From IMG/VR virus record IMGVR_UViG_3300017727_000186, positions 1-22,055 of that record: a DNA stretch of 22,055 nt; one strand, given 5' to 3'. Source of the stretch: a virus. Positions 19,517 through 21,703 of this stretch are shown one piece after another (positions within the stretch are counted from its first letter, which is position 1; every line of letters starts with the position of its first letter). The notes under the pieces were generated by a model that saw only the letters and a list, made by a program, of their open reading frames with translations, was not told the origin of the DNA and did no database searches. The position numbers and the translations under genes are program-made.

Positions 19517-19542
19517 AGGAAGGGGGGTTTCCCCCCCAACCT
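19517..19542 (-). terminator. Strong G/C hairpin after the capsid genes (T-phi-like position)
   Basis: In the coding sense GGGGGG pairs with CCCCCC around AAA (19522-19537), and an outer AGG/CCT helix extends the stem across a small internal loop. It is followed by TTCCTATTAT rather than a full U-tract. It sits between the capsid/decoration genes and tail tubular protein A. T7 has its T-phi terminator at this point, after gene 10, to lower expression of tail genes. It is likely a partial terminator or processing hairpin. Confidence 0.6.
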
Positions 19543-19550
19543 TGTTATTA

Positions 19551-19832
19551 TTAGTCGCCATCAGTGCTTGCTAGTGTAGTACCATCGTTCACATCAACAA
19601 CCGAACCAGTGTTCGATAAGACATAAACTAAAGTAGCAACCAACGTACCGCCTGTGCTTGAGTTGACAAAGATCATATCGCCAACGCTAACTTCTTGGGC
19701 TACTGAATTAAAGTAACCTTCAGTGTTAGCTGTAGCAATAGTATCTGCTGTCGTATAAGCGAACATCTGAGGGGCTGACCCTTTCTTAGACTGTCCACCG
19801 ATTGGGTTCCACCCATCTCTACTAAACGCCAT
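19551..19832 (-). CDS. Small head decoration-like protein
   Basis: This 93-residue protein lies 2 bp after the major capsid gene and is probably translated at a similarly high level. It has the pattern MAFSRDGWNPIGGQSKKGSA, then QMFAYTTAD and GYFNS, a small mainly beta protein with a DVNDGT tail. From memory, proteins with this opening sit directly after capsid genes in many podoviruses and siphoviruses. Position and size fit a decoration or head-stabilising protein, but that function is inferred. The strong hairpin follows its stop codon. Confidence 0.7.
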   Translation of the reverse strand: MAFSRDGWNPIGGQSKKGSAPQMFAYTTADTIATANTEGYFNSVAQEVSVGDMIFVNSSTGGTLVATLVYVLSNTGSVVDVNDGTTLASTDGD

Positions 19833-19834
19833 GA

Positions 19835-20695
19835 TTAAGCCTCCCTACAGACAACATCTACAATACCGTCAGTATCGATTGCGATACTTCCCATAGATAA
19901 CTTGGCTGTCACCAAGAAAGATGTTTTTTCTGCTATATAATTAATTTCAGTTGAAGCAGGCATCCCTACTGCAACCCCTAGTGCGGATTGATGAAACGCA
20001 AAACAAGTACGATCACTAGAACCATCAATAGATAATCCACCCTCATCCCTGTCACCAAGAATGTGGAATTGGAAACCCATCATGCTTCCGATCTGACCGC
20101 TTATCAAATTTTGTATATTCTGATAATCGGCACTAATTGCTCTTTCATCACCAAGTAGTCCAGCCAAGTTGTTCGCATGAATAATCATGTGACGATTTTG
20201 GGCTGGTACATTCTTAGCATCCATAGCTTTCTTCGCTGCAATGATCTTACCCATGTTAAGGTCAGATGCTGCTGCACTACCAGTTGTAACAATAGTGTTA
20301 GCCACTGTGCTACCAGCTGATGCAGCTGCCAACGCATCCAAGATGATTTGATCTTGTCTACGTCCGATAGCTGAACCAACAACCTGTGCAAGTTCTCTTC
20401 GCTCATCAAAGTTGATCTTGTTTTGAAGAAAGATATCGCTGTATTCTGATGCGGAAAAATCCGTAAGAGAACAAGCGACACTTGAAAAACTAGTGTTTAG
20501 AGGAACCACGTCAGTTCCTGGAGTTCGAACACTAGCTTGTCCTTTCCCTACCTTGGGAAAGTTAACCGTAGAACCGACAACGCCAGTTCTGGTTCGTGCT
20601 GCGCCAGTTAATACCGCTGATCCTTGGTACGCTTGATGTACCTCTGCTTCGAACAGCTGAGTAAACGCTGGCGACAAGTTTGCTCTTGTTGTCAT
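19835..20695 (-). CDS. Major capsid protein (HK97-fold type)
   Basis: This 286-residue protein is shorter than T7 gp10A (345). The N-terminal arm LSPAFTQLFEAEVHQAYQ (7-24) and RTRTGVVGSTVNFPKVG (34-50) lead to an E-loop-like region. A long spine-helix segment follows (FDERRELAQVVGSAIGRRQD, about 97-116), then P- and A-domain segments with HMIIHANNLAGLL and a FHILGDRD element. Synteny after a scaffold supports the call. AGGAGG with a 6-bp spacer precedes the ATG at 20695. The 177-bp leader is the longest non-coding stretch in the window and is highly structured. No slippery site for a T7-like 10B frameshift was found at the stop. Confidence 0.85.
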   Translation of the reverse strand: MTTRANLSPAFTQLFEAEVHQAYQGSAVLTGAARTRTGVVGSTVNFPKVGKGQASVRTPGTDVVPLNTSFSSVACSLTDFSASEYSDIFLQNKINFDERRELAQVVGSAIGRRQDQIILDALAAASAGSTVANTIVTTGSAAASDLNMGKIIAAKKAMDAKNVPAQNRHMIIHANNLAGLLGDERAISADYQNIQNLISGQIGSMMGFQFHILGDRDEGGLSIDGSSDRTCFAFHQSALGVAVGMPASTEINYIAEKTSFLVTAKLSMGSIAIDTDGIVDVVCREA

Positions 20696-20697
20696 AA

Positions 20698-20713
20698 TAT
20701 GCCTCCTAGCATA
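20698..20713 (-). promoter_or_regulatory. Hairpin presenting the capsid ribosome binding site
   Basis: In the mRNA sense TATGC and GCATA pair perfectly (5 bp) around a 6-nt loop TAGGAG, so the Shine-Dalgarno core is held in the loop immediately before the major capsid ATG. This could keep the site exposed or make it a target for a binding protein. The short AT-rich stem may be only marginally stable. Confidence 0.4.
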
Positions 20714-20759
20714 AAAGTTACGTTTACATTACTCGCAACAGTTATCCAGAAAGTCTGGG

Positions 20760-20826
20760 CTGTAACCTACGGCATACGCTGCCGCAACGACTGATTTCTC
20801 AGCTGCCAGAACGGCTGTGGTTACAG
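20760..20826 (-). ncRNA. Structured leader element upstream of the capsid gene
   Basis: CTGTAACC and GGTTACAG form a perfect 8-bp closing helix around 51 nt. Inside are CGGCA/TGCCG (5 bp, 5-nt loop, 20770-20784), CTGA/TCAG with a GAAA tetraloop in the minus RNA, and CAGC/GCTG, the last two being partly exclusive. The result is a multibranch fold in the 5' leader of the capsid mRNA. It is not a tRNA: there is no TTC T-loop, normal anticodon arm or CCA. A 9-bp direct repeat ACAGTTATC overlaps its right end and recurs just outside its left end (20738-20746 and 20823-20831). Function unknown. Confidence 0.4.
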
Positions 20827-20850
20827 TTATCGTTCACAATAAGTTATACC

Positions 20851-20870
20851 TTACAAGACCCATCTTGTAA
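20851..20870 (-). terminator. Inverted repeat just after the scaffold gene
   Basis: TTACAAGA and TCTTGTAA pair perfectly (8 bp) around a 4-nt loop, two bases past the scaffold stop. No U-tract follows, so it may be a processing or mRNA-stability hairpin rather than an intrinsic terminator. It separates scaffold from capsid, which need different amounts of product. Confidence 0.45.
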
Positions 20871-20872
20871 AG

Positions 20873-21703
20873 TTATTTGTATCGCTCCTCAAATTCCTTC
20901 TCTACTGACCTAGTGTAAGATGGGTCTGTTCCATATTTAGGATCTGCCATCTTAGAGTTAATCCTATTACGAAAATCATCTTCACTTTCTTTTCCAGCTT
21001 GATAAGCAGTAGTAGTTGGAATAGTGATATTCTCGCCTGTCATTGCTCTAACCTTTTGCAATAGACGTGCGCCTGTAGCTGTACCACCCCATATATCTAT
21101 TTCTGACAATTCATCTTCAGAGATAATTCCTTTACCTACTAAACCATTTGCCCAGGTAATATTAGATTTAATTATCTCATCTGCATTTTCACCTAACGCT
21201 TTTTTCTCCTGTGCGATAGATAGTGTTTCTGCTTCCGCATTGACCCCACCCATCTCCATAACTTTGCCTGCCAATCCTTCAAACGCTGCTTGTGAAATAC
21301 CATTGTCTTTTGCCCATCCAGAAAAAAAACCTAGAAGTTCATCACCTTCAGGAATGTTATCTCCTAAAAATTTTGTATCATACTTTCCATCTTCAGGGGC
21401 TTTGTGTTTTCCCTGAGAGAATTGTTTTTCTAGATTTGAATATGCATCCACAATCTTTTCTAGATTAGGACCATCATCATCCCAAAACTTTTCTGGATAC
21501 CATTCAGGTCTTTCATATGGACCATCATTAACATCTTCGTCTTGTGGCTCAAGATGTGGAATTTCTCCAGGCTCTTCAGTTTCAGTATTTGTTACTGGTT
21601 CACTTTTTCGTGCCTCATCCATTAAACCTTGAGGTTCAGGTTGTTGCTGCTCTTCTGTTTTTACAGTTTCATCAGCAGCCAGTGCCTCATTCGCTTGGCT
21701 CAT
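20873..21703 (-). CDS. Capsid assembly scaffolding protein (gp9-like)
   Basis: This 276-residue acidic protein has a disordered N-terminus rich in Glu, Gln and Pro (1-60), then ERPEWYPEKFWDDDGPN (64-80) and LEKIVDAYSNLEKQFSQGK (81-99), a pattern common in podovirus scaffolds. Helical segments follow, ending in a basic C-terminus (SVEKEFEERYK) that would contact the capsid protein. It resembles T7 gp9 (about 307 residues) in position and composition. It starts with AAGGAGAGCAA before the ATG and overlaps the previous gene by 17 bp. It would guide procapsid assembly and leave before packaging. Confidence 0.85.
   Translation of the reverse strand: MSQANEALAADETVKTEEQQQPEPQGLMDEARKSEPVTNTETEEPGEIPHLEPQDEDVNDGPYERPEWYPEKFWDDDGPNLEKIVDAYSNLEKQFSQGKHKAPEDGKYDTKFLGDNIPEGDELLGFFSGWAKDNGISQAAFEGLAGKVMEMGGVNAEAETLSIAQEKKALGENADEIIKSNITWANGLVGKGIISEDELSEIDIWGGTATGARLLQKVRAMTGENITIPTTTAYQAGKESEDDFRNRINSKMADPKYGTDPSYTRSVEKEFEERYK

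Follow-up and report, generated by a model that had tools for sequence, protein, structure and literature searches.

The capsid cassette and its leader

The window analysed here is a stretch of 22,055 nucleotides (nt) of viral DNA (IMG/VR record IMGVR_UViG_3300017727_000186, positions 1 to 22,055), in which an operon running along the minus strand carries a scaffold gene followed by the gene for the major capsid protein (MCP). The 177-nt gap between the scaffold stop codon (20873) and the MCP start codon (20695) houses a folded RNA, and it is near certain that a large group of podoviruses have a conserved structured RNA as leader of their capsid cassette. An earlier reading of the sequence (the original prediction) had placed a multibranch RNA-like fold in part of this gap; the leader RNA is the reverse complement of the letters quoted there. 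The capsid cassette comprises a promoter, the leader, the MCP gene, a small gene and a GC hairpin, and is laid out in the window as follows.

21703-20873, minus strand: scaffold gene, with its stop codon at 20873
20866-20871, minus strand: -35 hexamer TTTACA of the capsid promoter, directly past the scaffold stop codon
20843-20848, minus strand: -10 hexamer TATAAC, after a 17-nt spacer; predicted +1 at about 20835
20731-20835, minus strand: whole conserved leader RNA, as matched by covariance models (R1, E 2.2e-8; R2, E 1.3e-16, a value that is not independent, a near-identical sequence being in the R2 training set)
20698-20713, minus strand: small hairpin predicted by folding, displaying the Shine-Dalgarno sequence AGGAGG (20702-20707) in its loop; the stem changes on both sides in relatives
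19835-20695, minus strand: MCP gene (PF19821), starting at 20695
19551-19832, minus strand: small gene of the capsid cassette (phrog_18004), with no assigned function
19521-19537, minus strand: GC hairpin with a weak U tract, at the end of the cassette
19499-18870, minus strand: tail gene

Two hairpins share a duplicated internal loop

From 5' to 3' the conserved fold consists of P1, a 4-nt strand opposite a single C, and P2; then P3, which encloses hairpins a and b; then P4, a C opposite a 4-nt strand, and P5; and finally a GCGA tail. Its parts occupy these positions in the window.

20809-20835, minus strand: hairpin I, with P1 (20831-20835/20809-20813), the loop strand AUAA (20827-20830) opposite C 20814, and P2 (20824-20826/20815-20817)
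20763-20808, minus strand: middle domain, with P3 (20805-20808/20763-20766), hairpin a with a GAAA loop (20790-20803) and hairpin b (20769-20785)
20739-20762, minus strand: hairpin II, with P4 (20760-20762/20739-20741), C 20759 opposite the loop strand AUAA (20742-20745), and P5 (20755-20758/20746-20749)
20733-20738, minus strand: conserved tail UUGCGA, of which GCGA is retained in most of groups A, B and C (defined below)

Hairpins I and II carry the same asymmetric 4x1 internal loop (GAUAAC/GCC) in mirror order, its general form being G-(4 nt)-Y opposite R-C-C, with two copies per RNA. The 9-bp direct repeat ACAGTTATC, which had been noticed beside the proposed fold, is indeed found at 20738-20746 and 20823-20831, and corresponds to two copies of GAUAACUGU, that is, to this duplicated loop. 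Both hairpins have low thermodynamic stability (medians of -5.2 and -5.7 kcal/mol), and their loop letters are nearly invariant in the A1 sequences. The first letter of the 4-nt strand is either A in both hairpins (107 loci) or C in both (97 loci) and never mixed, in matches to a descriptor that permitted A or C independently in each hairpin. This loop type tracks phage clades, and the joint switch of both loops may be one coordinated change. The middle domain is a variable two-hairpin domain, usually present between hairpins I and II and missing from reduced members such as CKB-S2. A pseudoknot is possible between the loop of hairpin b (20775-20779, often CGU) and the tail (20733-20738, with a conserved GCG), for which relatives give mixed support.

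Covariation supports the fold

Searches with the MCP yielded 80 IMG/VR contigs, and later 80 MEP301-like and 80 mostly new ones. Leaders were assigned to group A (that of the window), group B (MCP about 75% identical) or group C (MEP301-like). Within the first 80 contigs, every leader long enough to read has the element, one of them (L016) in a reduced form. The original prediction had made its case depend on conservation and covariation in relatives and on folding better than that of shuffled sequences. Covariation and conservation were found, well above chance, and the minus strand of 20760-20826 folds at -29.5 kcal/mol compared with a mean of -17.5 for shuffles (z -4.5), none of 200 shuffles being as good; the plus strand of the same interval gives z -3.7. 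These results support the view that the capsid leader contains a folded RNA with a function.

RNAalifold, given group A and group B leaders in a plain sequence alignment, independently recovers P1, P2 and P3, with 8 of 12 pairs compensatory. A joint MAFFT alignment of the two groups puts the inner hairpins one base out of register; a model was therefore made from group B, and the remaining leaders were aligned to it. Trained on group B alone, a covariance model matches the window at E 2.2e-8, as well as remoter group A leaders (L022, E 0.004; the reduced L016, E 0.21). In the resulting A+B alignment 27 of 29 pairs have changed on both sides with pairing kept, and the covariation score is 0.84, compared with 0.25 +/- 0.02 for shuffled and 0.06-0.11 for slid controls; P1 is 100% paired and all five of its pairs have changed on both sides. 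A second model, built on A+B, matches 19 group C leaders in the 20 loci searched (E 3e-5 to 0.8), all at the expected place, and under the A+B-derived structure 25 of 29 pairs in group C have changed on both sides (score 0.49 versus 0.14). Since the A+B and C alignments were fitted to the structure, weight is placed on the slid and shuffled controls and on the plain alignment used with RNAalifold.

An alternative fold in the lineage of the window

The elements originally quoted, CTGTAACC/GGTTACAG at 20819-20826/20760-20767, CGGCA/TGCCG and CTGA-GAAA-TCAG, are present at the positions given. The GAAA-loop and CGGCA/TGCCG hairpins hold up, with compensatory changes in relatives, whereas the 8-bp helix that was thought to close the domain fails as a conserved core: groups B and C lack it, and it is confined to part of the lineage of the window. 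Hairpin I, with P1, and hairpin II, which are the universal parts, had been left out. Among close relatives all 8 pairs are present in 12 of 15, mostly with unchanged letters; L010 and L019 have 6 and 7 pairs, with one pair changed on both sides, and L022 has 4.

20760-20826, minus strand: domain closed by the 8-bp helix, the alternative fold of most of group A, favoured by nearest-neighbour energy

The helix arises in most of group A by pairing of the P2 loop with P3', and competes with the conserved P2, P3 and P4. Nearest-neighbour energies over 105 nt are -36.3 for the best fold and -23.4 for the conserved one; the alternative is preferred after 76 nt of transcript, while P1/P2 forms earlier. 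The two folds could represent a lineage-specific switch, or an artefact of neglecting tertiary contacts and bound factors.

Two mutually exclusive foldings, together with a compact multi-helix fold and near-invariant loop letters, are features that speak for a ribozyme, as had been suggested, or for a ligand-sensing riboswitch. We consider either very improbable: no group other than A retains the alternative helix, the capsid gene is the sole gene context, and Rfam 15 at the gathering threshold gives no family in the window or in 18 relatives, the interval 20600-20960 giving nothing up to E 5. This agrees with the original prediction, which had found no match to a named riboswitch, tRNA or ribozyme.

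Range and association with the capsid gene

Hundreds of related phages retain the fold, relatives of HTVC010P included, and isolates that carry the RNA include MEP301, CKB-S2, HTVC100P and HTVC010P. Matches occur at the same place in the isolated pelagiphages HTVC100P, HTVC024P and HTVC203P (E 0.001-0.003), and in HTVC010P and Lederberg (E 0.05-0.07). In HTVC010P (locus L429, 563-667) hairpin I runs over the 3' end of gp08, an annotated open reading frame (ORF), so that one set of bases serves both a conserved peptide tail and the RNA. Distant members, such as the Vibrio phage CKB-S2 and L309 (MCP about 31% identical), are reduced to the two hairpins; this form also occurs on bacterial-genome contigs, among them L410, L415, L418 and, from the isolate Ferruginivarius sediminum, L423, several of them read by eye.

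The double-motif descriptor matches 204 of 258 loci on the expected strand. All five reverse-strand matches are genuine copies at loci stored in the opposite orientation. Matches in a scan with a short motif-2 pattern were mostly chance, and that scan was set aside. Nearly complete genomes contain one copy each, with no extra copies found elsewhere in them. When contigs were fetched by the RNA pattern rather than by the capsid, the MCP lay directly downstream in all 135 whose sequence continues; an additional descriptor match there, L498, is probably due to chance. Where relatives within the capsid family do not carry the RNA (L417, L421 and L085, the latter being Pelagibacter phage Hodr), the gap between the scaffold and capsid genes is short and shows no evident promoter, which would fit a joint gain or loss of the two.

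The association exclusively with the MCP, and the A/C loop type that changes in both hairpins together along phage clades, would suit autoregulation, in which the capsid, the scaffold or another phage protein would bind both loops and match capsid synthesis to assembly. Such a scheme seems unlikely to us. A median of 42 nt separates the end of the RNA from the start codon, the Shine-Dalgarno sequence stays free, the loops persist as the MCP drops to about 31% identity, and we know of no RNA-binding role for this capsid fold.

The RNA begins at a predicted transcription start

The predicted +1 of the sigma70-type promoter is the first position of the RNA, and P1 begins there in groups A and C. 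In most members a sigma70-like promoter ends 5-8 nt upstream of P1, with the score maximum at P1 and nowhere else within 150 nt upstream. A promoter scan of the window had overlooked the capsid promoter because it requires T as the last -10 base. The palindrome TTACAAGA-tggg-TCTTGTAA at 20851-20870, over the -35 hexamer and the spacer, has a counterpart at the equivalent position in most leaders of these two groups, A and B; it stays palindromic as its letters change, and may be an operator for a late regulator. A strong U-tract terminator is located just upstream of the leader at 52 of 116 loci, and a GC hairpin with a weak U tract follows the MCP and small genes in 103 of 114 relatives.

This arrangement is that of gene 9 - phi10 - gene 10 - Tphi - gene 11 in T7, the order of the T7 gene 10 cassette (scaffold, promoter, leader, capsid, terminator hairpin, tail tubular A) being found here. 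T7, however, transcribes with its own polymerase, whereas the capsid promoter predicted here is of the sigma70 type, and the 63-nt T7 leader has a simple 5' hairpin and no 4x1 loops. MEP301 has been reported to be without an identified RNA polymerase and to rely on that of the host (PMC8024684). Our search for the RNA polymerase family PF00940 gave no match, but the control of that search also failed.

A candidate role in cis

The reading that we favour, with a probability of about 0.4 on the comparative sequence evidence, is that the RNA acts in cis as 5' leader to a T7-like capsid cassette served by host RNA polymerase, and that a factor recognizes both loops and raises or protects capsid mRNA output. 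Capsid mRNA made by the host polymerase would open with the ~100 nt of the leader; a specific factor, of the host or the phage, would bind both loops; and the bound 5' end would work in cis, keeping the capsid transcript highly productive by shielding the 5' end, by promoting translation, or both. Leader and 3' hairpin would then mark off the mRNA in highest demand, in a way that resembles the framing of T7 gene 10 by phi10, leader and Tphi. Beyond the existence and conservation of the RNA, we infer every step. The support comes from covariation in all helices, P1 at +1, the MCP in 135/135 contigs, the GC hairpin in 103/114 relatives and the T7-like layout. That the hairpins are weak and their duplicated loops nearly invariant points to recognition and not simply to stable stems, and the exclusive tie to the capsid cassette, with the predicted +1 position, argues for action in cis on the capsid transcript. 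Of the roles suggested originally, a stable 5' cap structure would come nearest to this, P1 being at the predicted +1; a processing signal or a translation regulator would be further candidates.

Several points weigh against this reading. Weak stems are poor passive protectors of a 5' end; the recognizing factor is hypothetical, and expression, half-life and binding are predicted. The patterns behind the 135 contigs derive from known members, so that copies with diverged loops elsewhere would escape them. Nor does the +1 position hold throughout: among HTVC010P-type phages, hairpin I overlaps the 3' end of a small ORF that precedes it, and no clear promoter adjoins the hairpin.

Comparison with put and other structured RNAs

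The putL RNA of HK022, which is used with host polymerase, follows closely on a sigma70 promoter and is made up of two stem-loops that have internal bulges (PMC9378689); hairpins I and II, from the predicted +1, likewise give a phage transcript two stem-loops close to its start. Characteristic of put is binding to the beta' zinc-binding domain, with suppression of termination. By analogy, the nascent two-hairpin RNA might bind host RNA polymerase and render it resistant to pausing or termination, so that it reads past the GC hairpin into the tail genes. The dependence of these phages on host polymerase (PMC8024684) is in keeping with such a role, as are the tail genes just past the GC hairpin, with little space for a promoter. 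We nevertheless regard it as doubtful. The put RNA serves two early operons, whereas the RNA described here is confined to the capsid cassette and was not found at other promoters; the U tracts of the GC hairpins are weak, so that simple leakage may suffice; and neither model nor descriptor matches put. As a homologue, a question separate from that of a shared mechanism, put was rejected: the descriptor finds nothing in the HK022 region, and the best R2 match has E 0.18.

A more far-reaching possibility, which we put forward only tentatively, is a new class of RNA shared by abundant aquatic phages, including the HTVC010P-like ones, in which the 4x1 loop, present twice where the late capsid transcript begins, would reprogramme host RNA polymerase or recruit a capsid-linked factor. 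Such a class would be a host-polymerase counterpart of the dedicated late transcription of T7, unrelated to put.

Comparative genomics has revealed other structured RNAs in marine sequences and phages, among them manA, wcaG and PhotoRC-II (PMC2864571). Those precede metabolic or photosynthesis genes, whereas the present leader precedes a capsid gene and has no similarity to them in Rfam. Mimicry of Escherichia coli rRNA was also considered and rejected, the loop motif giving just scattered weak matches. No earlier description of this RNA was found in the literature searched, most subscription papers lying outside that search. The RNA has strong support, is missing from Rfam and accompanies the capsid gene in a widespread group of phages, with isolates that infect Pelagibacter, Methylophilales and Vibrio. 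Through it one can test how phages that lack an RNA polymerase of their own handle their most demanding gene, and the cultured isolates permit experiments. In Alteromonas phage ZP6 (L434) and Vibrio phage K300 (L435) a near-consensus sigma70 promoter is followed by a different capsid leader, in which GGGUAGC/GGUAGC occurs twice and which is possibly a second, unrelated leader RNA.
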